Source of the DNA: Arthrobacter sp. NicSoilC5
GTDB lineage: Bacteria; Actinomycetota; Actinomycetes; Actinomycetales; Micrococcaceae
DNA: 64,000 bases
Assembly: GCF_019977395.1 (NCBI RefSeq)
Contig: NZ_AP024660.1
Location: forward strand, 1,984,001 to 2,048,000
Direction of reading: 5' to 3'
Below the pieces are notes generated by a model. It worked only from the letters and a program-made list of their open reading frames with translations. It made no database searches and was not told the DNA's origin. A program made the translations under genes and the position numbers. Shown in pieces: positions 7,435-23,464 of this stretch. The stretch's first letter is position 1. Each line of letters starts with the position of its first letter.

Positions 7435-7452
7435 CCCGCCCGGGTTACTCCC

Positions 7453-7656
7453 AACGCCCCATCACTTCCTGCCCCCTTCCCACCAACGCCCCACCACCTT
7501 CCGCCCCCTTTCTCCCAACGCCCCATCACCTCCTGCCCCCTCCCGCCCAACGCCCCATCACCTCCTGCCCCCTCCCGCCCAACGCCCCATCACTTCCCGC
7601 CCCCTTCCTCCCAACGCCCCACCACCTCCTGCCCCCTCCCGCCAACGCCCCATCAC
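7453..7656. repeat. 32-bp-period tandem repeat array 2
   Basis: Seven cores related to AACGCCCCATCAC start at 7453, 7485, 7517, 7549, 7581, 7613 and 7644. The period is 32 bp except for the last step of 31. Two copies read CCACCAC instead of CCATCAC. The array occupies the first half of the 415-bp gap between the hydrolase and rpoN. The remaining roughly 190 bp hold no feature I can name beyond the rpoN upstream region. The conserved tail of arrays 1 and 3 is missing here. Confidence 0.9.
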
Positions 7657-7849
7657 TTCCCGGGCCTGATCCCCTAAACCTGTCGGCCGCGCCGGGGAAT
7701 GAACGCAGCGGCGGTGAGGATGCGTGTCGTCAGCATGGCTGGGCAACGCCGGTTCTGCGGTACGGAGCCGGTTGTGTGGGTCAAGGGCCGGTAATGCGGC
7801 CTGCCCGTACTGCCTTCCGCCGCGGGAGGCCACGGGGCTAGCCTGAACC

Positions 7850-9142
7850 ATGGCCACCGAAGGGCCCGGTTCCGGCCTGCAGCTGCAGGCGGGGCTGCAA
7901 CCCGAGCTGCGCGCGCTGCCCGGCCTGCTGAGGGCCCTGGGCATGCTGGCCATGACGCACGCGGAAGTGCAGCTCGCCACCGAACGAGCCCTTGCCGACA
8001 ACCCTGTCCTGGAGCGCGCCGAGGGCCACCCATGTCCGGGGTGCGGCCGGCATGTGGCGTCCGGAACCTGCTTCCGCTGCCGGGGCCAGTCGGGCGTCTC
8101 GCAGTTCCGCGATGGCCCCGAGCCGGCCGTCAATCCGTTTGCATCGCTGGAAGCAGACGCAGGCGTTGAAGTCCGCCCGGACTGCCGGCACGCGCTGGAC
8201 CTCGTGCTGGCTCATCTGACCTCCCGCGGACTCCTGGACTGCGAACCGGAGCAGATCGCCCGGCAGCACGGCCTGCGCCCCGACCAGGTGCACGAGGCCC
8301 TTCGCGCCATCCGGGCCGTGGGCCCGCCAGGCATCGCCTCCACCAGCGTCGTGGAACTGCTCGCCATCCAGGCCGAGGCGCTGGTGGACGCCGGCGACGC
8401 TCCGGACTGGCTCCCCCACCTGGTGCGCGCGCACCTGGCGGACCTCGCCGCGGGAAGCACCGCCGTCGTGGTCCGTGCCATGGGACTTCCCGAGGAACAG
8501 GTCCTTGCCGGCCTGGCCATGGTGAGGGAGCGGCTGCGGCCCTTTGTGGCAGTGGACACCGGCACCGCGGCAGCCGGCGTCCCTCCGGCGGACGTGTTCC
8601 TGTACCGCCGGCCGGACGGGTCCCTGGAGGTGGAGGTTCCCGGGAGCGCCTGGTTCGGTCTCCAGGTGGCTGACCTCTCCGCAGGTCTCACCGCGGCGTC
8701 CGGGGCGAAGCAATGGCTGACGGACCACGAACTGGCTGCCCGGCGGCTCCTGTACCAGATCGACCGCCGCGCCGGCGCCCTCCTCCGCATCACTGAGTGC
8801 GCCGTCGCGTACCAGAAGGACTTCCTGGACCACGGCGACGCCGGACGCCACCAATCCTTGACGCGGACCGCCGTCGCCCAGGAACTCGGGCTGCATCCTT
8901 CCACGGTGAGCAGGGCCGTGAGCAGCAAGCGGCTGCGGCTGCCCTCCGGAACCGTCACCGACCTGGCATGCCTCTTCGGCAAGGGCCTGGCCGCACGGGC
9001 CGCGCTGCAGGAGTACATGACGACGGCGGCGGGCGGCGCTGCCTCCGACGAACAACTCCGCGCCGAACTGGCCCGCAGCGGGTTCGTCATTGCCCGCCGG
9101 ACCGTGAACAAGTACCGGCGCTCGCTCCAGCCGGACGCGTAG
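7850..9142 (+). CDS. rpoN: RNA polymerase sigma-54 factor (RpoN) with an inserted zinc ribbon
   Basis: Sigma-54 directs RNA polymerase to -24/-12 promoters and needs an AAA+ activator to open them. Region I is visible at residues 10-55 (LRALGMLAMTHAEVQ, then ALADNPVLE). The core-binding region occupies the middle. The helix-turn-helix LGLHPSTVSRAVSSKRLRLP lies near 345-365, and the RpoN box ARRTVNKYR is at 415-423, close to the canonical ARRTVAKYR. Between region I and the core-binding domain is a CxxC-x8-CxxC zinc-ribbon-like motif (residues 62-77) instead of the usual acidic region II. The length of 430 is near normal. Sigma-54 is absent from most characterised actinobacteria. Its neighbours supply a matching promoter and activator. 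Confidence 0.95.
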   Translation: MATEGPGSGLQLQAGLQPELRALPGLLRALGMLAMTHAEVQLATERALADNPVLERAEGHPCPGCGRHVASGTCFRCRGQSGVSQFRDGPEPAVNPFASLEADAGVEVRPDCRHALDLVLAHLTSRGLLDCEPEQIARQHGLRPDQVHEALRAIRAVGPPGIASTSVVELLAIQAEALVDAGDAPDWLPHLVRAHLADLAAGSTAVVVRAMGLPEEQVLAGLAMVRERLRPFVAVDTGTAAAGVPPADVFLYRRPDGSLEVEVPGSAWFGLQVADLSAGLTAASGAKQWLTDHELAARRLLYQIDRRAGALLRITECAVAYQKDFLDHGDAGRHQSLTRTAVAQELGLHPSTVSRAVSSKRLRLPSGTVTDLACLFGKGLAARAALQEYMTTAAGGAASDEQLRAELARSGFVIARRTVNKYRRSLQPDA

Positions 9143-9196
9143 GCAGGCACCACCCGTAGGCGGGCCCGCAGGCACCCCAGGCAGCCGCGAATTCCT

Positions 9197-9212
9197 TTTC
9201 GCGCCGGCGAAA
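9197..9212. promoter_or_regulatory. candidate upstream activator site for the sigma-54 activator
   Basis: TTTCGCGCCGGCGAAA has perfect 6-bp inverted arms around a 4-bp centre. It lies about 105 bp upstream of the predicted start of the sigma-54 promoter at 9283, a normal distance for a bacterial enhancer-binding protein. Only position and symmetry support it. Confidence 0.4.
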
Positions 9213-9282
9213 TCCGGTTCGGGCCAGGGCTGCCGGCGCCGCCGTTTCTCCCCCGCTTCCGCCCGTGCTGAGCCCGCCCGAA

Positions 9283-9299
9283 TTGGCACGAATTGTGCA
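9283..9299 (+). promoter_or_regulatory. sigma-54 (-24/-12) promoter
   Basis: TTGGCACGAATTGTGCA matches the sigma-54 consensus YTGGCACGnnnnTTGCW at nearly every position. The invariant GG (9285-9286) and GC (9297-9298) have the required spacing. Transcription would start near 9310, leaving a leader of about 60 nt before the ATG at 9369. The site lies between rpoN and the small-protein gene and points into the 9369-16324 gene row. Confidence 0.85.
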
Positions 9300-9368
9300 G
9301 TAAGAGGGTATGCGGTGTTCCGCGGTGGTGCCTCCCAGGGCACCTGCAACTCCGGAAAGGAAATACTC

Positions 9369-10085
9369 ATGCACGACATCGATAGGGCACTGTTCGAAGG
9401 CCAGGACGAGGGCACCTGGGGCGAGGTGATGGATGAGGGGCCCGGCTACTCCTACGAGGACGAACAGTCACCCTTCCAGGGCGAAGAGGCCAGCGAAGCC
9501 GGGGGGCTCTGGGGCGAGGCCGACAGCCAGGAAACCGACGAGCTTGCCCTCGCCGCCGAACTGCTCGAAGTCACCGACGAGGACGAACTGGACCAGTTCC
9601 TGGGCGACCTGGCCCGGAAGGCAGTCTCGGCCGCCAAGGATTTCGCCGGGAGCGCGGCAGGACAGGCAGTGGGCAAGGTCCTCAAGTCCGCCGCCCGGAA
9701 GGCCCTCCCGCAGCTGGGCCAGGCCGTAGGCAACTACTTCGTTCCCGGCGCGGGCGGGCAGGCCGGACGCCAGGTGGGCAAGTGGCTCGGCAGCAAGTTC
9801 GAATCCGGGCTCCAGCTGGAAGGCCTGTCGCCGGAGGACCGCGACCTTGAAACCGCCCGCGCCTTTGTCCGCTTCGCCACCTCCACCGCCCAGCGCGCCG
9901 CGGCCACGCCCCGGAGCATCCCCGCCGCCCAGGCAGCACAGCAGGCAGCCACCGCCGCAGCCCGGCAGCACCTCCCGGGCCTGCTCGGCCGCCCAGGCCA
10001 GAACGGTCCCGGCCAGTCCGGCCGGCCTGCCAGCGGCCGCTGGATCCGCCGCGGCCGCAACATCGTGATCCTCAACGCACGCTAA
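9369..10085 (+). CDS. glycine-rich small protein, paralogue of the next gene
   Basis: First gene after the sigma-54 promoter; 238 residues; AAGGA ribosome site before the ATG. It has three parts: an acidic N-terminus of about 60 residues; a shared segment DEDELDQFLGDLARKAVSAA leading into a Gly/Ala-rich, glycine-zipper-like middle (QAVGNYFVPGAGGQAGRQVG); and a basic C-terminal end SGRWIRRGRNIVILNAR. A segment LETARAFVRFATSTAQRAA is also shared with the downstream paralogue. No signal peptide and no catalytic motif are visible. I cannot name the family. It may be a structural or membrane-active product of the cluster. Confidence 0.8.
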   Translation: MHDIDRALFEGQDEGTWGEVMDEGPGYSYEDEQSPFQGEEASEAGGLWGEADSQETDELALAAELLEVTDEDELDQFLGDLARKAVSAAKDFAGSAAGQAVGKVLKSAARKALPQLGQAVGNYFVPGAGGQAGRQVGKWLGSKFESGLQLEGLSPEDRDLETARAFVRFATSTAQRAAATPRSIPAAQAAQQAATAAARQHLPGLLGRPGQNGPGQSGRPASGRWIRRGRNIVILNAR

Positions 10086-10119
10086 CCACCCGGCACCACC
10101 CAACCCGAAGGACATTGCC

Positions 10120-10884
10120 ATGAGCACCAACTACTACGAGACCGAGTCCGCACCCTGGGCGCAGGAAGACGAAGGCGAAGGGAACTTCAGCGGCTACGAG
10201 GGCGGATCCGACCGAGAGGAAAACCTCGAGACCGAACTGGCCATGGAACTCCTCAGCATCAACTCCGAGGAAGAACTGGACCAGTTCCTGGGCAGCCTGG
10301 CCCGCAGCGTGGTGAAGAACGCCTCCCGGTTCATCAAGTCGCCCATCGGCAAGGCCCTGGGCGGCGCCCTAAAATCCGTCGCCAAGACGGCGCTGCCCAT
10401 TGTGGGAGGTGCCATCGGCTCCTTCGTGGCTCCCGGCGTCGGGACCGCCATCGGCAGCAAGCTTGGCTCCATGGCCGGCGGCCTGCTCGAGGCCGAGGAA
10501 GCCGAAAACATGGACGAATCAGAGGCTGAGGAAGAAGCCGCCCGCCGCTACATCCGGTTCGCCCGCGCCGCCTACCGCAACGCCGCACGGACCCCCGTAT
10601 CCGTCCCGCCCAACGCGGCCGCCCGCGCCGCTGCAACCGCCGCCGCCCGCCGCTATGCCCCGTCCCTGCTCCGCGCCCGCCAGGCAGCCCGGCGCGGGAC
10701 CCGCAACTACCGCGGCGGCGGCACCCGGATCTACAACACCCAGTACTCCGGTGCCGTGTGGGGCGCCCCGGACGAAGGCTGGGACAGCCAGCAGGACGGC
10801 AACGGCAACGGCAATTCCGGGAGCGGCGCCGATGAAGGCCGCTGGATCCGCCGCGACGGCCGCGTCATCCTCCTGGGGATATAA
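10120..10884 (+). CDS. glycine-rich small protein, paralogue of the preceding gene
   Basis: 254 residues with the same three-part plan as the gene at 9369. The acidic N-terminus ends in LAMELLSINSEEELDQFLGS, followed by a glycine-zipper-like core (LPIVGGAIGSFVAPGVGTAI) with SKLGSMAGG, then YIRFARAAYRNAARTP and a Gly/Asn-rich linker before GRWIRRDGRVILLGI. The shared EELDQFLG block, gly-rich core and C-terminal RWIRR motif show the two genes arose by duplication. The core looks able to insert in or coat a membrane. The function is unknown. The gene begins 34 nt after its paralogue, in the same transcript. Confidence 0.8.
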   Translation: MSTNYYETESAPWAQEDEGEGNFSGYEGGSDREENLETELAMELLSINSEEELDQFLGSLARSVVKNASRFIKSPIGKALGGALKSVAKTALPIVGGAIGSFVAPGVGTAIGSKLGSMAGGLLEAEEAENMDESEAEEEAARRYIRFARAAYRNAARTPVSVPPNAAARAAATAAARRYAPSLLRARQAARRGTRNYRGGGTRIYNTQYSGAVWGAPDEGWDSQQDGNGNGNSGSGADEGRWIRRDGRVILLGI

Positions 10885-10906
10885 CCTGCCGGCGGCTGAC
10901 GGCAGG
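10885..10906 (+). other. intercistronic hairpin
   Basis: CCTGCCG and CGGCAGG form a perfect 7-bp stem with an 8-nt loop directly after the stop of the 10120 gene. No T-tract follows, so it is more likely an mRNA processing or stability element, or a partial attenuator that lowers expression of the enzymes relative to the two small proteins. Confidence 0.4.
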
Positions 10907-10914
10907 CGATCGGG

Positions 10915-12243
10915 ATGGAAACGAACACCATCAGCACCGCGCTCATCGAGAGCGAGGCGGACGGCCTGGTGTCCCGGCTGGACCAGATCAAGCCGTTCGT
11001 CATGCAGGAAACCATGGTCCTGGCCGCCGCACTGCCCCGGGACGCCCAGCTGCTGATTGAACGCTTCCTCCACGCCGGACGCCACGAGCTCCGGGTCCAG
11101 GTTGCCGAGTTCCTGGACTGGCTGCACGGGGACGGCCGGACCGCCAGTCCCGCCGAACAGCAGCGCCGGTTCGTCCTGATCCGCCTCCAATTCAACGTGG
11201 TGCTGGCCCAGTTCGACCTGTTCACCGAGGTGGTCACCCAGCGCAGCGAGCACTCCACCGGCGTCTGGCTTTCCGGGCTGGACATCCTGGCCCAGGACGC
11301 CTTGCGGCTGGACGGAAACCACGACGACGGCGACGCACGGCTTGTGGTCTACCTCGCCAGGGGTGCGGGTGCTGCCATCCGGCGGGCCAAGACCCGCCTG
11401 CCCGGCGGCAAACCGAACCCGGTGGGGATCATCAGGCTGCCCCGGGAGCGGATGGTGGGCAGCGGGATCGCCTCCTCCCTGGCCCACGAGGTGGGACACC
11501 AGGGAGCGGCGAAGCTGGACCTGGTGACGTCCCTCCGCGCGGAACTCGACCGGCGTGCACAGCAGGACCCGGACGGCGGGTGGGACGTGTGGTCCCTGTG
11601 GATCAGCGAGATCATGGCGGACATGTGGTCCGTCGCCACCGTGGGGATCACCTCCACCGTGGGCCTGCTGGCGGTGGTCAGCCTCCCCCGCTACTTCGTC
11701 TTCCGGCCCGGCGGCACCGATCCGCATCCGATGCCCTACCTCCGGGTGCTGATCTCCGCGGCGCTGGGCGACGCCCTCTACCCGCACCCCCAGTGGCGCG
11801 GGCTGGCATCCGTGTGGCGGGCCATGTACCCGCCCGCCGGGCTGCCGGCGGAGCATCTCGCCTGGATCGGCAAGTGCGAGGCCCACATCGGCGACCTGGT
11901 CTCCCTGCTCATGAACCACCCCGTCCCGGCGGCCGGGGGCCGGAAACTCGGCACCCTCTGGCCCACCCGCGAACGGCGGCCCGAGCGGCTGCTCCGCCTG
12001 CACCAGGACTGGGGCGGCGACTTCGGGGTCATGGCCCGGCAACGGCCCGCACTGGTGTTCGCGGTCCTGGGCCAGGCCAAAGCCGCCGGCCGCATCACCG
12101 CCGAGGAGGAAAGCTCGCAGCTGTCCTCGCTGCTCACCGCATGGGCGGTCCGCAGCAGCCTGGACGACATGGGCGCCCCCGCACGCCTGGCCGGCAGCCC
12201 GGCACACTACCTCACCACACCAGCACTAACAACAAGGAGATAG
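10915..12243 (+). CDS. putative zinc metallopeptidase of the sigma-54 cluster
   Basis: A 442-residue protein with a zincin motif HEVGH at residues 191-195 (in SSLAHEVGHQGAAK) and a downstream SEIMADMWSVATVG (about 231-244), where the glutamate could be the third zinc ligand in gluzincin style. The rest matches no family I know. No signal peptide is evident, so it is presumably cytoplasmic or exported by a cluster-specific route. A role in processing the two small glycine-rich proteins encoded just upstream is an attractive inference from position only. Confidence 0.75.
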   Translation: METNTISTALIESEADGLVSRLDQIKPFVMQETMVLAAALPRDAQLLIERFLHAGRHELRVQVAEFLDWLHGDGRTASPAEQQRRFVLIRLQFNVVLAQFDLFTEVVTQRSEHSTGVWLSGLDILAQDALRLDGNHDDGDARLVVYLARGAGAAIRRAKTRLPGGKPNPVGIIRLPRERMVGSGIASSLAHEVGHQGAAKLDLVTSLRAELDRRAQQDPDGGWDVWSLWISEIMADMWSVATVGITSTVGLLAVVSLPRYFVFRPGGTDPHPMPYLRVLISAALGDALYPHPQWRGLASVWRAMYPPAGLPAEHLAWIGKCEAHIGDLVSLLMNHPVPAAGGRKLGTLWPTRERRPERLLRLHQDWGGDFGVMARQRPALVFAVLGQAKAAGRITAEEESSQLSSLLTAWAVRSSLDDMGAPARLAGSPAHYLTTPALTTRR

Positions 12244-12245
12244 CC

Positions 12246-13811
12246 ATGGATTTCAATCGACGGCCGGTTGCACCGGTGTATGCCGGACAGGATGTGGGAA
12301 TCCGTTTCCAGCTGGAAAGCTCGGACCCCCTGGGCGACTACAACTTCCAGGTCCTGGACGAACGGGGCAGGAGCATCCCCATCGGCGGGAACAAGGGCGG
12401 CATTTTCACCAAGACCATGAGCCGGGGCAAAGCGCTGGAGCTGAAGGTACGGCTCCCCGACCCGCTGGAATACCGGGTGCGGTTCCGCCCCAACATGCGC
12501 GGCATCGTGGGGAACTGGACCATCATCGACCGGATCGACGTCCAGGCACCGGACTCCGAACCGGTCATCAAAGTGGCACTGGAGCCCAACGCCGCCCCCA
12601 ACAGCGGACACGCCCAGCTGTGGGAGTTCATCTCCGGGGTGGCCGGGAACCTGACCTACACCAACTTCGCTGCCTTCGCGAAGACCAAGGCCAAGACGTT
12701 CGGCTCGCTCCCGCCCTTCGGCGGCCTCACCTACCAAAACCTGCACGCGCTGTCCGTGGAATTCATCTCCAAGGGCGCCCTGGGGAACAAGTTCGATCCG
12801 CTCCGCAAGAAGGGCTCCGGCTGGGGGCCCGCCAACCACAGCGCCCAGGCCATCCCCCTGTCCTACGTCAGCGACCAGGACAACGACCTCGCCCGGCCCT
12901 TCCCGGACGGCATCCCGAACGGCCAGTACCCGCTGGAACAGGTGCCGTTCGTCGAGCTGATTTACGTGTACTGGCTGGAGGAAGGCATGCTCTTCCAGTC
13001 CCTGAACAGGATCCTGGCCCGCTTCCAGAACCGGCGGTCACAGCCGGACGGGGACCCGCTCTCGCGGCTGGCCGTCAGCCCGCTGCTGCCGCTGCGCGGG
13101 CTCCTGTGGGGACTGGCCGAGGCCGAGAAGGACAGGCTCTCGCTGCGCCGCCGCGCCGCGGAGTACGAGTACCAGTACGGCCTGCAGCTGATCGGCCGCG
13201 CGGTTCCCCCGGCGGAGCTGCTGGTGGAGCGGCGGACCCAGTTCCTGGACGCGTTCCACAGCCTGCTCAATGCCTGCCACCGCTACTACAAAGAGTTCAG
13301 CGACAAGACCGTGGACGCGGATGCGTTCCCGCTCCTTAGCAACCTGCAGGAACTGCACCTGGTCCTGGCCGCCGGCGCGAACAACCAGTTCGCCGACGTC
13401 TCGCTGTCCGCCCGGATTGAGACCCTGGACGTGCAGTGGATGCTGGCCCAGCCCGAGATGCGCGAGTTCCTGGGCGGCCGCACCATGGTCCCCTACCAGG
13501 AAGAGTGGATGGGCCTGGTGGACACCATGAAGCTGATGCAGGATTGGTCCGACGCCAGCGTGACCCACTTCTACGACCTGGCCGTCCACGGGGAGCAGCT
13601 GCTGCTGTCCGTGCGGCATGGCCGGTGGAACGAGTCCGGCATGACCAGCGACGACGCCAAGAACTGGGCCCTCAAATGGAAGCCGTCCGTCCAGCGCTAC
13701 ATCCACGCCTACCGGGCCGTCACCGGGGTGGACCTCAGCGAACGCGTGGACACCACCATGCCGTCCGCGCTGCTGCAGCGTCGGCTGGCCCGGAAGCTGG
13801 TCCGGTACTAG
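12246..13811 (+). CDS. large uncharacterised protein of the sigma-54 cluster
   Basis: 521 residues; ATG 12246 has a strong AAGGAG site and follows the metallopeptidase stop by 2 nt. The N-terminal 110 residues look beta-rich (VGIRFQLESSDPLGDYNFQV, VGNWTIIDRIDVQAPDSE), like an Ig-type or carbohydrate-binding sandwich. The rest looks alpha-helical, with an aromatic-rich FVELIYVYWLEEGMLFQSLN and a long charged helix AEAEKDRLSLRRRAAEYEY. There is no signal peptide or catalytic signature. I do not recognise the family. An in-frame open extension upstream of 12246 is antisense-like and is rejected as the start. Confidence 0.8.
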   Translation: MDFNRRPVAPVYAGQDVGIRFQLESSDPLGDYNFQVLDERGRSIPIGGNKGGIFTKTMSRGKALELKVRLPDPLEYRVRFRPNMRGIVGNWTIIDRIDVQAPDSEPVIKVALEPNAAPNSGHAQLWEFISGVAGNLTYTNFAAFAKTKAKTFGSLPPFGGLTYQNLHALSVEFISKGALGNKFDPLRKKGSGWGPANHSAQAIPLSYVSDQDNDLARPFPDGIPNGQYPLEQVPFVELIYVYWLEEGMLFQSLNRILARFQNRRSQPDGDPLSRLAVSPLLPLRGLLWGLAEAEKDRLSLRRRAAEYEYQYGLQLIGRAVPPAELLVERRTQFLDAFHSLLNACHRYYKEFSDKTVDADAFPLLSNLQELHLVLAAGANNQFADVSLSARIETLDVQWMLAQPEMREFLGGRTMVPYQEEWMGLVDTMKLMQDWSDASVTHFYDLAVHGEQLLLSVRHGRWNESGMTSDDAKNWALKWKPSVQRYIHAYRAVTGVDLSERVDTTMPSALLQRRLARKLVRY

Positions 13812-13847
13812 GGGACGGCCGGGTCAGGAAAGGGCCAGGTACAGGAG

Positions 13848-14921
13848 ATGGCCGGGTCACCGGACGGAACGGATTTCACGTCCGCACTGTTCCTGGGCCA
13901 GCACCACCCCAGCACCGGGCTCACCCCGTGGGCGGAGTTCACTACCGGGGTGCCCGCCGCGTTACGGGAGCTGCCGGCGTCCACGGAGCTGGCCTCCCTG
14001 GTTGCCGCGCAGCAGCATGCCGACGGCGGCCTGGTGGCCAGGTCGGCGCTGCACGGAATGATGGATGTACTGCAGTCACTCCCCCGGCCCGGGGATGTGC
14101 TCCTGGTGGACGAGGGAGCCTACCCGTTGTCCCAGTGGGCGTGCCGGGCCTCGCTCCCCCGGGGCGTGCGGGTGATGACGTACCCGCACTTCCGGCCAGC
14201 CGCCGTCGTGCCTTCCAACGGACCGGCACCTTCCGCCAAAACCTGGGTGGTGACTGATGGCTGGTGCCAGGGGTGCGGGCGCCCCGCACCCCTGGCCCAG
14301 CTGCATTCCATCGCGGCGAGGACCGGCGGCCAGGTGATCGTTGACGACTCCCTGGCGTTTGGCGTCCTGGGCCGGACGTCCGGTCCCGCCGGGTTTGGGG
14401 ACGGTACCGGCACGGCACGGTGGCTGGGCTTGTCCCATGACCGGCTGCTGTGGCTTGGTTCGCTGGCCAAGGCCTACGGCACGCCCGTCACGGTGATCAC
14501 GGGTGACAGCACCACGGTGGGGGTGGTGGCCCGCAACGGCGGGAACCGGATGCACAGCAGCCCGCCGTCGGCGGCCGACCTTGCCGCCGGGATCGGGGCC
14601 CTCCGCAGCGGCGGCCTCCCCCGGCTGCGGCGGCGGCTGTGGCGGCTGACCCTCTGGCTGCGGACAGCATTCGCCGACCTTGGCCTTCCGCCGATGGGGC
14701 TTCCCTTCCCCATTGTCGGAACCCGGCTGGGCTCCCTGCCGCTGGCACGCCGGTGGCGGACCGCACTCGCAGCCCGCGGCGTGCAGGCGCTGGTGCAGCT
14801 GCCCCGCTGCCGGCCCGGCGCCGTGCTGTCCGCCGTGGTGCGCGCCGACCACAGCCAGGCCGACCTGGACCGGCTGGTGCGGGGACTGGCCGCGGTGACG
14901 CGGGACAGGCGGGCGGCCTGA
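13848..14921 (+). CDS. PLP-dependent fold-type I enzyme (aminotransferase / alpha-oxoamine synthase-like)
   Basis: A 357-residue protein resembling class I/II aminotransferases and alpha-oxoamine synthases. The cofactor aspartate region is GGQVIVDDSLAFGVLGR and the probable Schiff-base lysine lies in LLWLGSLAKAYGTPVTV. An upstream cofactor segment is PGDVLLVDEGAYPLSQWA. A pair of cysteines in VTDGWCQGCGRPAP is unusual. The C-terminal small domain is present but short. The stop overlaps the next start (TGATG). A PLP enzyme paired with an amidohydrolase suggests small-molecule synthesis or modification inside this cluster. Confidence 0.75.
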   Translation: MAGSPDGTDFTSALFLGQHHPSTGLTPWAEFTTGVPAALRELPASTELASLVAAQQHADGGLVARSALHGMMDVLQSLPRPGDVLLVDEGAYPLSQWACRASLPRGVRVMTYPHFRPAAVVPSNGPAPSAKTWVVTDGWCQGCGRPAPLAQLHSIAARTGGQVIVDDSLAFGVLGRTSGPAGFGDGTGTARWLGLSHDRLLWLGSLAKAYGTPVTVITGDSTTVGVVARNGGNRMHSSPPSAADLAAGIGALRSGGLPRLRRRLWRLTLWLRTAFADLGLPPMGLPFPIVGTRLGSLPLARRWRTALAARGVQALVQLPRCRPGAVLSAVVRADHSQADLDRLVRGLAAVTRDRRAA

Positions 14922-15703
14922 TGATCGTGGATTCGCACGTCCATGTGGGGACCGCCGGCGTACCGCTGGGCCCGGCCGGCCCCGCCGCTTCCTTTGCACT
15001 GTGGCGGAAGCGGGCTGCCGCCGTCGGAATTTTCCGTGGTGTGCTGATGGCCGCGCCGGGTGGCACCTACGCGGCCGCCAACCGGGCCGTAGCGCAGCTT
15101 GCCCTGAGGGAGCCTGGCGGGTGGCTTTGGTATGTGTTCGTCAATCCCGTGGCCGACCGCGGGCGGGTGGGCGCCATGGTGGCGGCCGCCCACGCGCGCG
15201 GCGCCTGCGGGATCAAGGTGCACTGGTCCGACGGACCCGCAACGGATGAGGTAGCGCTGGCCGCGGAACGCCATCAGATGCCGGTGCTTTTTGACCCGGG
15301 CGGGGACGTGCAGCTGGTCTGCCACCTGGCCGGGCGGCATCCCGGGGTCGCCTGGATAGTTCCGCATTTGTCGTCCTTCAACGACGACTGGCGCGCCCAG
15401 AAACGGCTGACCGATGCGCTGGTCCAGCTGCCCAACATCTTCACGGACAGCTCCGGGGTGCGGTACTTCGACCTGCTGGAGGAGGCCGTGGCCCGGGCAG
15501 GATCGCGGAAGGTGCTGTTCGGCAGCGACGGGCCGTACCTGCACCCCGCGCCAGAGCTCGCCAAAATATTCGCGCTGGACCTGCCGCCGGCTGACCGCGA
15601 CCTCATCCTGGGCGGCAACGTCCTGAGGCTGACGGGACCGGCCCGGAGCGGGCGCTGTTGCACCGATGCGGGACAGGACAGGAGGAAGAAGGCATGGCTG
15701 TAA
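14921..15703 (+). CDS. amidohydrolase-family metal-dependent hydrolase
   Basis: 260 residues with the TIM-barrel amidohydrolase-2 pattern: an N-terminal metal HxH in MIVDSHVHVG, a strand with GIKVHWSDGPA, a later PHLSSFND histidine, and the C-terminal aspartate in VLFGSDGPYLHPAPE. The family covers decarboxylases and lactone or amide hydrolases. The ATG at 14921 shares its A with the TGA of the PLP gene, so translation is coupled and the two enzymes probably act in sequence. The last roughly 25 residues are basic and may be a non-conserved tail. Confidence 0.75.
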   Translation: MIVDSHVHVGTAGVPLGPAGPAASFALWRKRAAAVGIFRGVLMAAPGGTYAAANRAVAQLALREPGGWLWYVFVNPVADRGRVGAMVAAAHARGACGIKVHWSDGPATDEVALAAERHQMPVLFDPGGDVQLVCHLAGRHPGVAWIVPHLSSFNDDWRAQKRLTDALVQLPNIFTDSSGVRYFDLLEEAVARAGSRKVLFGSDGPYLHPAPELAKIFALDLPPADRDLILGGNVLRLTGPARSGRCCTDAGQDRRKKAWL

Positions 15704-15745
15704 AATGTGCCGGCCGCGGGTCCGGAGCCGATCAGGGCGCCGGGA

Positions 15746-16324
15746 ATGGCCGAGATAAAACCGGACAACGGGCCAGCGATCAGGGGCGGCCTCAACCAAC
15801 TGCGCGCCTACCTCCGGCAGAGCGACGCCGCCCGCCGGGCGAGGCCCGGCAGCAGGACGGCCCGGCCCGCATGGATGGCGGGCAACGAGCCCCGGCGGGA
15901 ATCCGTGTGGCTGATTACCTACCGGCCCTGGCCGCCCGGGCCCGCGCCCAGCCAGGTGCGCATCTTCGCCCACGAAATCGCCGCGGACCGGCTGGTGGCC
16001 AGGACCACCAGGGATGACCGGCTACCGGCCACGAAGGACCTGGTGAAGTCCCGCCGCGAACTGCCGCCCGTCCAGCTGGCAAAATTCATTCCCTTTCCGT
16101 CACCGGACAAGCAGCCGGACATGTTCGGGCTCGCCGTGGAGGACCTGGTCCGCCAGCAGTTCGGCAGGATCTATAAACGTGCCAACTACCGGGGCCGGCT
16201 CCCCGGACGGAAGGGGCCGGACGTGCTCTGGCGGGAGCTTGGGGACTTGTTCCGGGAACTCGCCGAGGAGACCGGTGACGGGTACTGGCACGAGGTGGCG
16301 GAGGAGCTGGACCGCGGGGCCTAG
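15746..16324 (+). CDS. hypothetical protein, last gene of the sigma-54 cluster
   Basis: 192 residues from ATG 15746; a GTG at 15707 is an alternative start. The N-terminal 50 residues are basic and proline-rich. The remainder has strands such as ESVWLITYRPWPPG and QVRIFAHEIAADRLVARTTR, and a C-terminal amphipathic helix (LWRELGDLFRELAEETGDG). No domain is recognised. It converges on the activator gene with 6 bp between the stops and no obvious terminator. Confidence 0.65.
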   Translation: MAEIKPDNGPAIRGGLNQLRAYLRQSDAARRARPGSRTARPAWMAGNEPRRESVWLITYRPWPPGPAPSQVRIFAHEIAADRLVARTTRDDRLPATKDLVKSRRELPPVQLAKFIPFPSPDKQPDMFGLAVEDLVRQQFGRIYKRANYRGRLPGRKGPDVLWRELGDLFRELAEETGDGYWHEVAEELDRGA

Positions 16325-16330
16325 CCGGAC

Positions 16331-17719
16331 TTACTCACCGCCGGTGTCCGTCCTGCGGGCCTGCCGCTGCTGGACGGCACGGTCCGTGAGCCCCAGCATG
16401 GTGGCGGCCGAATGGACGTTCCCGCCGCTCCGCTCAACCGCCACAGCCACGGCCGCCTCCGCCGCGCGTTCCTTGATGTCCCGCAGCCCAAGGCCGGCGT
16501 CAACTGCCCAGGCCACCGCCCTGGCGAGCGGATCGACGGCGAGCGGATCGATGGCGCCGGCCGGGCCGCCGTCGTACGCGTTCTGGCCCTGATCCGCTCC
16601 CAGGTGCCCTGCCTGCGGCCTGTCCTCGCGGGGAAGGTCGCCCGGGGTGATGGCCCCCGGGCCGACGTGCCGCGCCGCGATGCGGAAGGCCAGCTGTCGG
16701 AGGTCGCGCAGGTTGCCCGGGTAGCTGCGGCGGAGCAGGACATCCTGGACCGCCGGATCCACGTCCGGGTCGGTCCGGGCGCCGGTGGCCTCGCGGCAAA
16801 AGCGGGCGAAGAGGCACAGGATGTCCTCCAGCCGGTCCCGCAGCGGCGGCATGGTGACCACCGAGGCGGCAATGCGGTGGTAGAGGTCGGTGCGGAAACT
16901 GCCGGCGGTGACTTCACAGGCGAGGTCGCGGTTGGTGGCGCAGATCAGCCGGAATTTGCTGTGCAGCCACCTGTCGCCGCCCACGCGTTTGTAGGTGCCT
17001 TCCTGGACCACGCGGAGCAGCTCGGGCTGGAGTTCCAGGGGGAGTTCGCCTACCTCGTCGAGGAACAGGGAGCCCTGGTCGGCGCCGGAGCAGGCGCCGG
17101 TCCGCACGCTCACCGCGCCCGTGAAGGCGCCACGTTCGTGGCCGAACAACTCGCTGCCCATCAGCGTGGGGACGATGGTGGTGCAGTCCACCACCACCAG
17201 GTTGCCGCGCTGGCTGCTGACCGCGTGGGCCACCCGGGCCGCCAGTTCCTTGCCGGTCCCCGTCTCCCCCTGGATCAGGATGGGTGCGTTCCCGAACTTC
17301 GCGGCCACCACCAGGTCCCGGAGCGCGGACCGCAGCGCCGGGCTCTGCCCCGCCAGCTTGTCGCGGACCAGAACGGAGTCGATGACCGTTTCCACGTCCT
17401 CGATCCGCTGCAGCCACGCCGCCACCGGCTCCACCTGGCCGTGCCAGGCCATGCATTCCGCCGCGCCGGCCTCAAGCACCGGCCAGGGTTTCAGCCTTCC
17501 GTCCGGCGGCCCGAACACCAGCACCCTGCACCTGCCGTATTCCGCCATCCCCAGGGCCGAGACCAGGTCCTGGGACTGCGCCGCGGCAAAGATGATGCCT
17601 GCGGTGGCGGCAGTCTCTGGAGCATCCGCCAGCGTGAGGGGGACGTGTGCGGCACGGAGGGTTTCGATGGCCTCACTGGCCCAGGCCTGCCGGCCACTGA
17701 GGTCCATTACCCACGGCAT
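16331..17719 (-). CDS. sigma-54-dependent transcriptional activator (enhancer-binding protein)
   Basis: This is an AAA+ ATPase that remodels sigma-54 RNA polymerase. Numbered from ATG 17719 (462 residues): Walker A GETGTGKE at 151-158, the sigma-54 contact loop GAFTGA at 197-202, Walker B SLFLDEVGE near 217-225, sensor I ICATNRD, the arginine-finger region FRTDLYHRI, the sensor II segment YPGNLRDLR, and a Fis-type helix-turn-helix GGNVHSAATMLGLTDRAV near 433-450. The N-terminal roughly 120 residues look like a degenerate receiver (RCRVLVFGPPDGRLKPWPVL) without the usual phosphorylation aspartate. An upstream in-frame TTG at 17761 is a weaker start. It probably activates the promoter at 9283. 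Confidence 0.92.
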   Translation of the reverse strand: MPWVMDLSGRQAWASEAIETLRAAHVPLTLADAPETAATAGIIFAAAQSQDLVSALGMAEYGRCRVLVFGPPDGRLKPWPVLEAGAAECMAWHGQVEPVAAWLQRIEDVETVIDSVLVRDKLAGQSPALRSALRDLVVAAKFGNAPILIQGETGTGKELAARVAHAVSSQRGNLVVVDCTTIVPTLMGSELFGHERGAFTGAVSVRTGACSGADQGSLFLDEVGELPLELQPELLRVVQEGTYKRVGGDRWLHSKFRLICATNRDLACEVTAGSFRTDLYHRIAASVVTMPPLRDRLEDILCLFARFCREATGARTDPDVDPAVQDVLLRRSYPGNLRDLRQLAFRIAARHVGPGAITPGDLPREDRPQAGHLGADQGQNAYDGGPAGAIDPLAVDPLARAVAWAVDAGLGLRDIKERAAEAAVAVAVERSGGNVHSAATMLGLTDRAVQQRQARRTDTGGE

Positions 17720-17904
17720 AGAGCCCCTCGCAGTTCCGCTGCCGGCACTTCGCCTGCGCAACGAAGCTGACCATGCCCGGCGTTACAGCCCCGTTACTGC
17801 CGCTGCCACTGCCCCTGCGTCAGAGGATCTTGCGCCAATCTTTCAGGAAAAACCGCGGGTTGCTGATGGTTTTTCACGCATGATCAGGGTCAACGGATGA
17901 GGAG

Positions 17905-18852
17905 TCAGATAACACCATGACCGACCACAGCGTCCCTGACGGGCCCGGGGTCCCCGCCAGCGGCGGCACCTTGGTGATCCACACGTGGACCGAGCCCGAC
18001 GGCGAACACGGCTTCCGCGCGCGGGTCACCTACAGCGAGGGGTCCGGGCAGCACGGCAGCCTCTCCACCGTGGACCGGGAGGAAGTCCTCCACGCCGTGC
18101 GTCAGTGGCTGGCCGCCCAGGACGGGTGAAAACCGCGCGGGTGGATACCCCGCCTGCACGGCGTCGACGAGTTTGGTGAGCGCTTCCGACGGCAGGACGC
18201 CCAGGTCCCTGCGCAGGGCTTTTGTGTAGTTCCCGTAGGCGTGCAGAGCGGAAACAGGGTTCCCCATTTCCAGTTCCGCGGTGACCAGGGCCCGCACGGC
18301 GCTCTCGTAAAGGGGTTCGATTTCCAAAGCAGCGCCCGCCGCTTCCGCAGCGCCGCCGCAGTCCCCCGCCTGCAGCAGTGAACGTGCCAGGAGCGTCAAA
18401 GCGCGCAGCCGGTCCTGCTGCAGCCGACTTTGCTCGAACAGTACCCAGTCCTCGTACCAGCCGGGCAGCAGCTCAGCGTCCCGCAGGTCCAGCAGGGCCT
18501 TGGTGGCTGCCCCGCTTCCTGCCGGACTGTCCTGGAGCAGGGCCCGCACCCGGTAGAGATCCACCTGTACCGACGGGTCCAGGGCCAGCACCGGTCCGTC
18601 CTTCGCCAGTATTCCGGGGATCTGGCGCGTGGCCAGGTGCACGCTGACCCTGAGGCTCTCCAAGGCCCGGGGTTCGGGGCAGTCCGGCCAGAGGAGCCCG
18701 GCGACGTAATTCCGCACCCTGGGACCGCGGATGGCAAGCGCGGCGATCAGGCGCTGCTGGCGGACGGCAACACGGATAATTTCTCCGTCGCGGCGCAGTT
18801 GCCAACACCGGAGCAGGTCCAATTCCACATGTCCACAGCCACCACCGCCCAC
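17905..18852 (-). CDS. BTAD/SARP-type regulator domain protein with an anomalous C-terminal tail
   Basis: 315 residues. An N-terminal winged-helix-like region (RVAVRQQRLIAALAIRGPRV, VAGLLWPDCPEPRALESLR) is followed by a bacterial transcriptional activation domain of helical repeats (EDWVLFEQSRLQQDRLRALT, PLYESAVRALVTAELEMGNP, SALHAYGNYTKALRRDLGV). This is the architecture of SARP-type activators. The BTAD domain ends near residue 240. The last 75 residues lie antisense to the small gene at 17917 and look like non-coding translation, so the natural stop may be lost or a frameshift may exist. GTG 18852 has a GAGG site 6 nt upstream. Another GTG at 18828 is possible. Confidence 0.7.
   Translation of the reverse strand: MGGGGCGHVELDLLRCWQLRRDGEIIRVAVRQQRLIAALAIRGPRVRNYVAGLLWPDCPEPRALESLRVSVHLATRQIPGILAKDGPVLALDPSVQVDLYRVRALLQDSPAGSGAATKALLDLRDAELLPGWYEDWVLFEQSRLQQDRLRALTLLARSLLQAGDCGGAAEAAGAALEIEPLYESAVRALVTAELEMGNPVSALHAYGNYTKALRRDLGVLPSEALTKLVDAVQAGYPPARFSPVLGGQPLTHGVEDFLPVHGGEAAVLPGPLAVGDPRAEAVFAVGLGPRVDHQGAAAGGDPGPVRDAVVGHGVI
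17917..18129 (+). CDS. small hypothetical protein
   Basis: A 70-residue product with a compact alpha/beta look: TLVIHTWTEPDGEHGFRARV, then TYSEGSG and a C-terminal helix REEVLHAVRQWLAAQ. The ATG has GAGGAG about 12 nt upstream. It lies entirely antisense to the tail of the BTAD gene. GC3 bias and a sensible fold pattern favour this strand as the coding one. It is divergent from the sigma-54 activator, with about 200 bp between the starts. Confidence 0.55.
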   Translation: MTDHSVPDGPGVPASGGTLVIHTWTEPDGEHGFRARVTYSEGSGQHGSLSTVDREEVLHAVRQWLAAQDG

Positions 18853-18978
18853 GGGACACCTCAGCCGGGTTGAAGTACCTGAACTACGTAAAAATGAGGA
18901 TCCTCAGCTTGAAAATGAATGTCAATGTAGCGAGGCCCCTAATCGGGTTGGGAGGGCGCGCTCTCGAAAGCTGCCAGC

Positions 18979-19085
18979 GACGCGCCATCACCTCCTGCCC
19001 CTTTCCCTGAGACGCTCCATCACTTCTGGCCCCCACCCCGGCAATCCCCCATCACCCGGCGTGCGAAAGGCGCGGGCCGCCGTCG
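18979..19085. repeat. 32-bp-period repeat array 3 (degenerate) with conserved tail
   Basis: Three diverged cores start at 18979 (GACGCGCCATCAC), 19011 (GACGCTCCATCAC) and 19043 (AATCCCCCATCAC), again 32 bp apart. After a 3-nt gap comes GCGTGCGAAAGGCGCGG (19059-19075) and CCGCCGTCG (19077-19085), the same tail as array 1. It lies between the aquaporin 3' end and the BTAD gene 5' end, both on the minus strand. Confidence 0.85.
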
Positions 19086-20306: not shown

Positions 20307-20687
20307 ATGAACGACAACGGCAGCATCGACAAAACCCCGGTCCCGGATGAGGCACCTGAGGAACGTGACCTGCGCGGACGGTACGTCGAAGGCAACTTTG
20401 GCAAAGCCGGTGCCCAGCGCGGCCGCCATGCTGAAGACGACGAGGGCCAGTACATCGAAGGGGACTACGGTCCCGCGGGCAGCGAAGGCGGACTGCCCGA
20501 ACCCCTGGGCGACAGGACCGTGGGAGCCGGACGCTACGTCAAGGCCGACTACGGCCAGGCCGGCCCGGTGCCCGGCCGGACCGCGGCTTCCGAAACCGGC
20601 CGGTACCCGGAAGGCGATTACGGCAAGGGCGGCGCCGTGGATCCCACGCGCAAGCCGGTCGCCCCGGACGCCCACACGGAGCCTTAG
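20307..20687 (+). CDS. acidic four-repeat hypothetical protein
   Basis: 126 residues built around four copies of a 12-residue motif: GRYVEGNFGKAG, GQYIEGDYGPAG, GRYVKADYGQAG and GRYPEGDYGKGG. They are separated by variable hydrophilic linkers. The protein is very hydrophilic, has no signal peptide or cysteine, and looks intrinsically disordered. The ATG at 20307 has a GAAAGG site. It is monocistronic, followed by a strong hairpin. The name and function are unknown. Repeats of this type may bind a ligand or polymer through the tyrosines. Confidence 0.8.
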   Translation: MNDNGSIDKTPVPDEAPEERDLRGRYVEGNFGKAGAQRGRHAEDDEGQYIEGDYGPAGSEGGLPEPLGDRTVGAGRYVKADYGQAGPVPGRTAASETGRYPEGDYGKGGAVDPTRKPVAPDAHTEP

Positions 20688-20839: not shown

Positions 20840-23464
20840 GTGACGTTAGAGACAAAGCTCGCCGGAGTCCCCTTCGCGGCCAATCTGGCCAGGTTCAGGG
20901 ACCGCATTGCCGTCAGCACCGGCAGCGAGTCGCTGAGCTACCGGGAACTGGGCCGCCGTGTGGAGGAAATGGCCGCATCCTTCGGCCACGGCCGCCGGCT
21001 CATCGCGTTGCAGGCCGACAACACGCTCCCGGCCCTGGTTGCCTACCTGGCCGCGCTGTCCTCCGGAAATCCCCTGCTGGTCCTGCCCACCAACCCCGCA
21101 GCCGCGGAAGCGCTCACGGATGCCTATGATCCGGACGTCGTGGTCCACACGGGGAACGGGCAGGCACTACTGGACGTGCGCCGGGACGAAACGCTCCACG
21201 ATCTGCACCCTGAACTCGCGCTGCTGCTCAGCACCTCCGGGTCCACCGGTTCACCGAAGCTGGTCCGCCTGTCCGCCGACGGCATCCAGGCCAATGCCGC
21301 CGCGATCGCGGAATACCTGCAGTTGCGCCCCACTGACAGGGCCGCCACCACGCTCCCCCTCTCCTACTGCTACGGGATGAGCGTGGTGAACAGCCACCTC
21401 CTGGCGGGAGCATCACTGGCCCTGACCGATCTCTCCGTGGTGGACCCCTGTTTCTGGGACCTGGTCCGGGCGGAGAGCGTCACATCCTTCGCCGCGGTGC
21501 CTTACACTTTCGACCTCCTGGACCGCGTGGGCTTCGCGGACATGGACGTGCCCAGCCTGCGCTACATCACCCAGGCCGGCGGACGGCTGGACCCGGAGCG
21601 GGTGCGTTCCTACGCGGAGCTGGGCCGGCAGCAGGGGTGGGACCTGTACGTGATGTACGGGCAGACGGAGGCTACCGCGCGCATGGCCTACCTGCCGCCG
21701 GACCAGGCCTTGGAGCATCCGAACGCCATCGGGGTGCCGGTGCCGGGCGGCTCCTTCAGGCTGGAGCCTGTTCCCGGGTTGAATGCCTGCGAACTCGTCT
21801 ACAGCGGCCCGAACGTGATGCTGGGGTACGCCGGACGGCCGGCGGACCTCAGCCTGGGCCGCGTTGTTGACAAGCTCCACACGGGCGACCTTGCCCGGCG
21901 CGGCGCGGACGGCCTCTACGAGATCGTGGGCCGGCGGAGCCGCTTCGTGAAGATCGTGGGACTCCGGGTGGACCTGGGGCAGGTGGAGCGGATGCTGGCG
22001 GACCTCGGCGTGACTGCAGCTGCGGCAGGGTCCGACGATGCGGTGGTGGCCGCCGTCGAAGGCGACCACGACCTCGGCCTCCTTGCCAAAACCCTGGCGC
22101 AGGACCTCGGCCTGCCGCGCGCCGCCGTCGAACTTCACCGCGTGGAGGCCATTCCCCGCCTGGGCAACGGCAAACCGGACTACCCTGCGATCGCCGCACT
22201 CGCCGGTGCAGGGGCAGCGGCGAGTGAAGGCGGAGGGGACGACGGCGGCCCGACGGCCCCGGACGCGGGCTCCATGGACGTGGGGCGGATCTTCTCCGAG
22301 GTGCTTGACGTGGGCAGCGTGTCCGCCACGGACACGTTTGTGTCCCTGGGCGGCGATTCCCTGTCCTACGTGGCGGCGTCCATCCGGCTGGAGGATGCCC
22401 TCGGGTACCTCCCCGAAGGCTGGCACCTGATGCCGGTCTGCGAACTGTCGTCCACGCGGCACCGGGTCCGTCAGGCCGTTGCGCCTCCCGAGGGCCGCGC
22501 CGGAACCAAGAGAACGCGGCGGCTGTTCGCGCCCATGGAAACCGGGATCGTGCTGCGGGCGGTGGCGATCGTTGCCATCGTCTCAACGCACATCGGGTTC
22601 TTCCACTGGCAAGGCACCGCGCACGTGCTCATGGCCGTAGCCGGCTACAACTTTGCGCGCTTCCAGCTGTCCGGCAGCCGCACGGAACGGTTCCGGCGGC
22701 ACCTGCGGAGCATCGCGCGGATTGTGGTGCCCAGCGTGGCGGTGATCGGGCTCGCGTTCGCCGTGACGGACAAGTACGCGTGGCACAACGTATTCCTGCT
22801 CAATACGCTTCTGGGGCCTCCGGGGTGGAGCGACTACTCCCGCTTCTGGTTTGTGGAAATCCTGGTCCACATCCTGACCGGGCTGGCTTTCCTGCTCGCG
22901 GTCCCGGCGGTTGACCGCGTGGTGCGGCGATGGCCGTGGGCGTGTGGCGTGGCCCTGGTGGTTGTGGACATGCCGCTGCTCTTCGGCCTGGTGGACAGCC
23001 GGTACCCGGGCCAGGGGCCGGTCCTGTGGCTGTTTGGCCTTGGCTGGGCAGCCGCCGCCTCCCGCACGGTGTGGCAGAGGTCGGCCGTGACGGCGCTCGC
23101 CTTCCTGACCGTTCCGGCCTCGTTCGACAATCCGTACCGGAGCGCCACCATCCTGGCGGGCTGCCTGCTTCTGCTCTGGCTGCCGGCCCTCCGGGTGCCC
23201 CGCGGGCTGCACCGGACCACGGCTCTGTTGGCCAGCGCGTCGCTGTACATTTACGTCACCCACTGGCTGGTGTACCCGCTGTTCGAGTCCCTGGACGTTG
23301 CGGAGCCGCTTGCCAAGGGGATTGCCGTGCTGGCGTCGGTGGTGTGCGGGATCCTCTACTGGGCGGTGGCCACGCGGGCAATGGCTGCGGTGGAGCGGCA
23401 CCTGAAGGGCCGGCGTGCGTTGCCGCCCCGTATTGCCGTGGGCCGTGAAGCACCAGCAAAGTAG
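20840..23464 (+). CDS. adenylation - carrier - acyltransferase-3 fusion protein, iron-regulated
   Basis: 874 residues with three parts. Residues 1-455 are an adenylate-forming domain: LLLSTSGSTGSPKLVRL, VMYGQTEATARM, HTGDLARR, RSRFVKIVGLRVDLGQVE, and the final lysine in RLGNGKPDY. Residues 475-545 are a carrier domain with the phosphopantetheine serine in VSLGGDSLSYVAA. Residues 560-850 are an integral membrane acyltransferase-3-like domain with about ten helices, starting VLRAVAIVAIVSTHIGFF. There is no condensation or thioesterase domain. It would activate an acid, load it on its own carrier and transfer it at the membrane. The iron box suggests a siderophore or iron-starvation role. Confidence 0.85.
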   Translation: MTLETKLAGVPFAANLARFRDRIAVSTGSESLSYRELGRRVEEMAASFGHGRRLIALQADNTLPALVAYLAALSSGNPLLVLPTNPAAAEALTDAYDPDVVVHTGNGQALLDVRRDETLHDLHPELALLLSTSGSTGSPKLVRLSADGIQANAAAIAEYLQLRPTDRAATTLPLSYCYGMSVVNSHLLAGASLALTDLSVVDPCFWDLVRAESVTSFAAVPYTFDLLDRVGFADMDVPSLRYITQAGGRLDPERVRSYAELGRQQGWDLYVMYGQTEATARMAYLPPDQALEHPNAIGVPVPGGSFRLEPVPGLNACELVYSGPNVMLGYAGRPADLSLGRVVDKLHTGDLARRGADGLYEIVGRRSRFVKIVGLRVDLGQVERMLADLGVTAAAAGSDDAVVAAVEGDHDLGLLAKTLAQDLGLPRAAVELHRVEAIPRLGNGKPDYPAIAALAGAGAAASEGGGDDGGPTAPDAGSMDVGRIFSEVLDVGSVSATDTFVSLGGDSLSYVAASIRLEDALGYLPEGWHLMPVCELSSTRHRVRQAVAPPEGRAGTKRTRRLFAPMETGIVLRAVAIVAIVSTHIGFFHWQGTAHVLMAVAGYNFARFQLSGSRTERFRRHLRSIARIVVPSVAVIGLAFAVTDKYAWHNVFLLNTLLGPPGWSDYSRFWFVEILVHILTGLAFLLAVPAVDRVVRRWPWACGVALVVVDMPLLFGLVDSRYPGQGPVLWLFGLGWAAAASRTVWQRSAVTALAFLTVPASFDNPYRSATILAGCLLLLWLPALRVPRGLHRTTALLASASLYIYVTHWLVYPLFESLDVAEPLAKGIAVLASVVCGILYWAVATRAMAAVERHLKGRRALPPRIAVGREAPAK

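Follow-up and report, generated by a model that had tools for sequence, protein, structure and literature searches.

The 64-kb window analysed here, taken from the 4.69-Mb, single-contig genome of Arthrobacter sp. NicSoilC5, contains an operon that very probably moves horizontally and brings along its own transcription switch, made up of a sigma-54, an activator, a promoter and enhancer palindromes. We show the parts of this module, their co-conservation, their co-occurrence in the sampled genomes, their common history and an insertion site. According to open reading frames (ORFs) and family scans, the block spans positions 7850-17719 and consists of the sigma-54 gene, a -24/-12 promoter, seven genes on the same strand and a convergent gene for a GAFTGA activator (Table 1). 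An earlier reading of this DNA (the original prediction) had named an rpoN gene, the promoter, the seven-gene run and the convergent activator, and every part was found where it had been placed. The run also has the contents it had been given: two paralogous small proteins, a HEVGH protein, a 521-aa protein, a pyridoxal phosphate (PLP) enzyme, an amidohydrolase and one extra gene. The closest named relatives of the cluster belong to Arthrobacter and Pseudarthrobacter.

Table 1. Features of the sigma-54 block and its surroundings (window coordinates)
Feature	Position	Strand	Basis
Sigma-54, RpoN-like, 430 aa	7850..9142	+	PF04963, PF04552; alignment
Enhancer palindrome 1 (predicted), GCGAATTCCTTTTCGC	9187..9202		10/10 fixed positions; kept upstream of promoter across loci
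Enhancer palindrome 2 (predicted), GCGAAATCCGGTTCGG	9207..9222		9/10 fixed positions
-24/-12 promoter, TTGGCACGAATTGTGCA	9283..9299	+	score of at least 28 in 13/15 sigma-54-bearing actinobacterial clusters
First small protein, 238 aa, glycine-zipper type, with tag GRWIRRGRNIVILNAR at the C-terminus	9369..10085	+	ORF; alignment
Second small protein, 254 aa, glycine-zipper type, paralogous to the first, with tag GRWIRRDGRVILLGI at the C-terminus	10120..10884	+	789 homologues; alignment
Putative zinc metallopeptidase, 442 aa, HEVGH	10915..12243	+	alignment of 20
521-aa core protein	12246..13811	+	673 homologues; structure models
PLP-dependent alpha-oxoamine-synthase-like enzyme (BioF/Kbl-like)	13848..14921	+	TIGR01825 8.2e-16, under cut-off; PDB BioF/Kbl 5e-9
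Amidohydro_2 metal hydrolase	14918..15703	+	PF04909 3.9e-17
205-aa protein without assigned family	15707..16324	+	9/36 loci, all actinobacterial
Sigma-54 activator, AAA+, GAFTGA, receiver-like N-terminal region	16334..17719	-	PF00158 1.3e-52
Inserted segment, about 11.6 kb	7439..19058		missing from empty site of G026, G003
32-bp repeat array, left end of insert	7450..7660		repeat search
32-bp repeat, two copies, right end of insert, same orientation as left	18980..19033		repeat search
SARP/BTAD-type regulator, outside conserved core, within insert	17905..18852	-	PF03704 1.3e-14

Promoter and putative enhancer palindromes

The promoter differs by a single base from YTGGCACGrNNNTTGCW, which we take to be the -24/-12 consensus; with scoring weights that are likewise our assumption, it is the top site of the window (29.5, runner-up 29.0). 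There are also two GCGAA-N6-TTCGC palindromes, absent from the original prediction, whose starts precede the -24 box by 96 and 76 bp. To put these elements in context, we scored the 320 bp preceding the first small gene in 15 sigma-54-bearing actinobacterial clusters (the window and loci L028-L030, L032-L037, L039, L040, L047, L048 and L050), using first-gene starts that are partly approximate. A promoter scoring at least 28 is found in 13 of the 15. A palindrome matching at 9-10 of 10 positions is found in 14, L035 topping out at 8, and in 13 clusters two or more copies match at no fewer than 8 positions. In 20,000 random 320-bp windows of the same loci, which may include true sites, the corresponding rates are 0.87% for the promoter, 2.9% for a palindrome at 9 or more positions, again 2.9% for a pair with at least 8 positions each, and 0.48% for promoter plus palindrome.

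The palindromes also extend beyond Actinomycetota, where 13 of 19 loci tested have a 9-10/10 copy upstream of the small genes. Six of these are from Bacteroidota (L041, L042, L044, L053, L056 and L059), five of them clearly paired and one without clear pairing; the others are from Myxococcus (L049), Corallococcus (L051), a deltaproteobacterium (L054), Thermoanaerobaculia (L055), Rhizobium (L103), Paraburkholderia (L104) and Ensifer (L105). A genome-wide search with the strict pattern TGGCACG-N5-TGCA, no mismatches allowed, gave 3 matches against 2 for a reversed control, so the promoter pattern by itself is not enriched. Of the 3 matches, only the one at the cluster has palindromes within 250 bp upstream.

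The sigma-54 and its activator

The sigma factor has clear matches to the core-binding domain PF04963 (1e-14, 55.1 bits, cut-off 22.9) and the DNA-binding domain PF04552 (1.2e-22, 80.8 bits, cut-off 22.8), and its RpoN box reads ARRTVNKYR in the alignment. The best of the listed NCBIfam rpoN models, TIGR02395 (rpoN_sigma), reaches 144.9 bits against an equivalog cut-off of 277.35. Since none of these models is above its cut-off, we regard the protein as a divergent sigma-54 and not as a certified RpoN equivalog. Between region I and the core-binding domain, at residues 62-77 (window positions 8033-8080), lie two CxxC motifs in a zinc-ribbon-like arrangement (CxxC-x8-CxxC). This segment is present in 15 of 17 aligned cluster sigma-54s, with a variant in L036 and L037, and was not seen in the three ordinary sigma-54s aligned alongside.

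The activator matches PF00158 with 178.3 bits and contains both Walker A and GAFTGA. Its N-terminal 115 residues or so look like a degenerate receiver ('W.LL..GA.DV') in the alignment, with no family match, and the C-terminal Fis-type helix-turn-helix PF02954 is under the cut-off (E 0.096). When compared with the RtcR, NorR, NifA and PspF equivalogs, it scores best with RtcR (246.9 bits), short of the cut-off of 650. A scan of the whole genome with PF00158 gave five matches above the cut-off, the cluster activator at 181 bits and four others at 23-35 bits; blastp with the activator at 1e-8 did not recover these four. PF00158 matches occurred in 14 of 14 control genomes, some of them without PF04552, so this model also picks up other AAA+ proteins. 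The PF04552 search of the host genome returned a single sigma-54. The notion of a private transcription machinery is thus supported for this genome, with its one sigma-54 and one strong sigma-54 activator.

Sigma-54 in the sampled Actinomycetes is confined to the operon

A genome scan with the 521-aa family, detecting exact peptide patterns only, yielded 36 loci; the contexts of the 673 homologues lie outside this count. In these loci, tblastn detected a recurring set, incomplete in individual loci, that comprises the small proteins, the peptidase, the 521-aa protein, the PLP enzyme, the amidohydrolase and the activator. Nineteen loci are actinobacterial and 17 come from other phyla. Sigma-54 was found within the stretch examined in 14 of the 19, so that here the central genes do not routinely occur without rpoN and the activator; it was found by tblastn in 0 of the 17 non-actinobacterial stretches. 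These latter clusters have no linked rpoN, but their hosts own a sigma-54 and the activator is mostly present. The cluster of L031 is split, its contig being broken in a small gene, and the lone sigma-54 of that genome lies on another contig beside both small genes (L005/L092). The contig of L052 is only 6.7 kb long and has no sigma-54 on it.

Other loci are reduced. L038 (Microbacterium) and L043 (Nocardioides) have a solitary 521-aa-like gene, no cluster and genomes without sigma-54; in L038, a NarL-type response regulator is encoded near this gene. L062 (Umezawaea endophytica) is a degraded cluster in which the activator, PLP enzyme, amidohydrolase and a partial 521-aa gene match, while the small genes, peptidase and sigma-54 are unmatched and PF04552 is absent genome-wide.

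We searched 34 host genomes (all except those of L052 and L057) with PF04552 and found sigma-54 in 31. Exactly one copy is present in each of 15 genomes, namely the 14 with sigma-54-bearing clusters and that of L031. All 16 non-actinobacterial hosts searched have at least one. When 16 of their sigma-54 loci were compared with the cluster locus of the same host, there was no overlap; this check left out five further second copies and one fragment. The second copy of genome G616 has coordinates compatible with the L053 stretch, where tblastn found none.

A co-occurrence search, as proposed in the original prediction, was made within the genus: of 198 genomes, 7 exceed the PF04552 cut-off (8 have a match at E <= 0.001), and these 7 are also the ones in which the 521-aa profile finds a match. 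In the class sample (394 genomes), PF04552 is above the cut-off in 4 (7 at E <= 0.001), 3 of which have the 521-aa protein; the fourth match is partial and marginal (23.4 bits). In the phylum sample (396 genomes), 18 genomes are above the cut-off (21 at E <= 0.001), and the host genome is the only one of these 18 from Actinomycetes. The other 17 belong to other classes and comprise 15 ordinary sigma-54s at 127-197 bits and two marginal matches. Ordinary, high-scoring sigma-54s of other actinobacterial classes are seen in L009-L023, with an activator-like match nearby in L020-L023. In the genomes sampled, sigma-54 in Actinomycetes is therefore confined to this operon, and ordinary sigma-54s are present in other classes of the phylum as defined by GTDB.

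Common history and insertion

A tree of 44 sigma-54s places all 17 cluster proteins on one side of a branch with a Shimodaira-Hasegawa-like approximate likelihood ratio (SH-aLRT) support of 97; the tree was made by a quick method and the program flagged long branches. This clade is separate both from the sigma-54s of other actinobacterial classes and from those of the non-actinobacterial hosts. Over 15 clusters, correlated tree distances were obtained for five proteins, namely the sigma-54, its activator, the peptidase, the 521-aa protein and the PLP enzyme (Mantel r 0.72-0.91, with 0 of 2000 permutations as high). The permutation ignores shared ancestry, so the correlation shows common history, not selection. 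Deep branches disagree among the gene trees, and host families are intermixed: two Micromonosporaceae are separated, and Rhodococcus groups with Kibdelosporangium. The ratio of nonsynonymous to synonymous substitution rates (dN/dS) against L029 and L030 is 0.12-0.31 in 15 comparisons, with 0.21-0.22 for sigma-54.

Two relatives have an empty site. When the corresponding loci of genomes G026 (L130) and G003 (L131), found among 59 genomes searched, were compared with the window by blastn, homology on the left stopped at 7438 and 7419 and restarted on the right at 19128 and 19059, respectively. The flanks lie 76 bp apart in G026 and 97 bp apart in G003, and neither sigma-54 nor the 521-aa protein was matched in these two genomes. 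From the flank positions, the insert is about 11.6 kb long and includes the SARP-type regulator, which is also seen in L028 and L029 and not in L030. The clusters of other Arthrobacter sit elsewhere; L028-L030 share another set of neighbours, with paaA identified in L028 and L029. The congruent gene trees, the empty site in two relatives and the joint occurrence in 7 of 198 genomes all agree with the suggestion that the block may be transferred as a unit.

Both ends of the insert carry a GC-rich 32-bp repeat with the core ACGCCCCATCACTTCCTGCCCC. A further array is found at 2430-2611, and the other Arthrobacter loci L029, L030, L123 and L126 contain copies that differ by no more than 4 mismatches. 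With copies of the same orientation at the two ends and this further array, recombination between such repeats is possible.

How the switch may work

From the known biochemistry of sigma-54, we infer binding and activation by the activator, and silence of the operon without it. The activator (16334-17719) would bind the GCGAA-N6-TTCGC pair at 9187-9222 and then contact RNA polymerase carrying the sigma-54 of the cluster (7850-9142) at the 9283 promoter; ATP hydrolysis by the activator would switch on the seven-gene operon (9369-16324). In hosts beyond Actinomycetota, where a general sigma-54 is available, activator, palindromes and operon may suffice. Actinomycetes have no general sigma-54, which would be why the sigma gene travels with the operon.

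Several observations weigh against a self-contained switch of this kind or limit its reach. The activator-interacting domain PF00309 of the sigma-54 scores 14.7 bits, below the cut-off of 23.8, with residues 23-55 aligned and the region visible by alignment. By our scoring, no promoter is present in L036 and L037, and L039 and L040 have one palindrome only. Of 16 loci scored outside Actinomycetota, 5 have a promoter of at least 28, and the 9 from Bacteroidota have none. Among the non-actinobacterial loci, L045, L058, L060 and L061 show weak palindromes and L046 and L063 show none, one of the searches having covered 500 bp. The co-occurrence in the class depends on three genomes. The C-terminal tag of the small proteins is not universal: L035, L039 and L040 lack it in their second small protein, and in several Bacteroidota it is looser. 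The operon enzymes fit several functions equally well.

The layout itself varies in some loci. In L036, L037, L047, L048 and L050, the activator gene is located directly upstream of sigma-54, in tandem, and in L034 sigma-54 is on the strand opposite to the operon.

Other explanations can be offered for this arrangement. The published view would make the actinobacterial rpoN-like gene a non-functional relic: the available part of PMC12316311 dismisses, judging by similarity and domain scores, the matches in Modestobacter, Citricoccus and Alloactinosynnema, and the PF00309 score given above is in line with this. However, the dN/dS of sigma-54 resembles that of the other cluster genes, the RpoN box is retained, as are promoter and palindromes over large distances, the sigma-54s form a single clade that tracks the cluster, and the degraded cluster L062 sits in a genome without any sigma-54. 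We thus consider a relic very improbable. It also seems very improbable that the sigma-54 acts as a general factor on a wider regulon, of which the operon is one target among several. There is one strong activator in the genome, and besides the cluster promoter the strict search returned two sites, both without a palindrome within 250 bp upstream, at a total hardly above the control (3 against 2); the search used one strict no-mismatch pattern, so weaker sites may exist. The genes could, finally, be vertically inherited neighbours without functional relation, in keeping with the G+C content of the insert (0.698), which resembles that of the flanks (0.678 and 0.690). The empty sites already contradict this idea, and so do the trees, in which hosts are mixed; the different chromosomal site in other Arthrobacter and the conservation of the same gene set across phyla likewise speak against it; we give it next to no credence. 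A horizontally moving operon with its own switch remains by far the best explanation.

The operon proteins and their possible function

The two small proteins have an acidic N-terminus, a glycine-zipper core and a C-terminal GRWxR tag, whose G, R, W and R are invariant across 20 aligned rows. Small proteins were matched in 31 loci; in 22 of these, a total of 29 ORFs terminate in a strict version of the tag. A looser G-[TS]-W version is found in L041, L044, L045, L046, L053, L058 and L060, that of L042 has diverged, and L031 is truncated. In some homologues (e.g. P0136, P0137 and P0154), two copies of the small protein are fused.

In the peptidase, H191-E192-x-x-H195 and E232 are invariant in 20 rows, as is D236, and an H271-P-x-P motif is present; E232 probably is the third zinc ligand of a gluzincin-type site. 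There was no convincing Pfam or PDB match and no NCBIfam match to this protein. According to structure models, the 521-aa protein consists of a variable N-terminal beta-sandwich and a conserved all-helical C-terminal domain, for which structure comparison gave no clear fold match. Between the window and loci from other phyla, the helical domain is 47-55% identical (37% for L063). The small proteins, the peptidase and the 521-aa protein are at least three families without a Pfam match over the cut-off that recur from Bacteroidota to Proteobacteria.

The PLP enzyme is a distant relative of alpha-oxoamine synthases (57.6 bits with the best NCBIfam model, cut-off 535.4). K208 is present in 27 of 27 aligned rows and D166 is also kept; we read them as the Schiff-base lysine and the pyridine aspartate. 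In the amidohydrolase alignment of 26 rows, H7, H9, H150 and D204 are each kept in 95% or more, and both enzymes thus retain residues that are likely catalytic. A family with one member (L046) identified as an M20-type dipeptidase joins the cluster in 11 loci.

What the operon makes can be addressed only tentatively. Although less probable than not, the likeliest single function, which we offer as speculation, is that the peptidase cleaves or processes the two acidic glycine-zipper proteins at their tag. The 521-aa protein would assist the peptidase, and the PLP enzyme and amidohydrolase would modify or dispose of the released part. The outcome may be a membrane-active or signalling product, made under a stress sensed via the receiver-like domain of the activator. 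The same portable module could instead encode a self-assembling or storage protein system (a shell, filament or reserve). Paired and sometimes fused paralogues, some of them without the tag, would suit this, as would a peptidase, an M20 dipeptidase and an amidohydrolase able to recycle protein; making and breaking enzymes in a single operon would then be hard to account for, however, and the conserved tag suggests recognition, so that we find this doubtful. Rather unlikely, in our view, is an anti-phage or toxin conflict system. Its appeal lies in the patchy distribution and mobility of the cluster and in a weak resemblance of the glycine-zipper proteins to membrane-active peptides. Yet among nine proteins submitted to PADLOC 2.0.0, the activator alone matched, with three models for RtcR-type regulators that span its AAA part (one reaching near the C-terminus), and IMG/VR contains no relative of the 521-aa protein.

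Taken with the switch, these families may represent a new cross-phylum system, although we would not yet call this probable: a tagged protein pair for processing or membrane activity, a new peptidase and a new helical family, one activator with its palindrome, and a sigma-54 captured as cargo, which would let the system operate in bacteria otherwise without this factor, with all sigma-54 in Actinomycetes being such cargo.

Two further features lie outside the insert. An ORF at 20307-20687 encodes a small protein whose translation shows repeats resembling GRYxEGDYGxAG, and a large ORF at 20840-23464 may, by eye, be an AMP-binding/carrier/membrane acyltransferase-like fusion.

Comparison with known systems

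The sigma-54 system has been described as lacking in Actinobacteria in the available text of PMC3162934, and the corresponding part of PMC3372290 reports rpoN in 2 of 182 actinobacterial genomes. From what is available of PMC12316311 (2025), 4 of 173 were found and one was reassigned, the phylum being considered effectively without functional RpoN. Against this last view, Actinomycetes hold a constrained sigma-54, confined in the sampled genomes to the operon described here. It can now be tested whether actinobacterial RNA polymerase works with sigma-54, by which route an entire transcription mode crosses phyla, and what form a minimal sigma-54 circuit of one activator and one promoter takes. 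The circuit might also provide an orthogonal promoter system for actinobacterial engineering.

With its core-binding and DNA-binding domains, RpoN box, GAFTGA AAA+ activator, paired upstream palindromes and -24/-12 promoter, the module resembles the known pairs of sigma-54 and an enhancer-binding protein of the NtrC/PspF/RtcR type. It differs from ordinary sigma-54 in belonging to a class reputed to be without it, in being tied to one operon and one activator, and in its extra CxxC...CxxC segment and weak activator-interacting domain. The PLP enzyme is, like BioF, Kbl and serine palmitoyltransferase, a fold-type I enzyme with K208 and D166 in place; unlike them, it is far under the listed NCBIfam cut-offs and linked to peptidases, not to biotin or lipid genes.

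A HExxH peptidase paired with small proteins of conserved C-terminus recalls the FxSxx-COOH/zincin peptide-processing systems, which the available text of PMC7159879 describes as a HExxH peptidase with a variable small protein of conserved C-terminus. We considered membership in these systems and rejected it: the tail is GxWxR and not FxSxx, the peptidase is unmatched in NCBIfam, and the window genes include no AP-ATPase and, among the ten proteins scanned with Pfam and NCBIfam, no radical SAM match. The peptidase model of the FxSxx-COOH systems is presumably TIGR04267.

Mobile clusters with their own sigma factor exist, for example those with an extracytoplasmic function (ECF) sigma beside its target operon, and in the present cluster, too, the sigma gene adjoins the operon it would serve. 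Unlike an ECF sigma, sigma-54 needs an ATP-driven activator and usually is a general factor of the host; here it is cargo only where the host has none.

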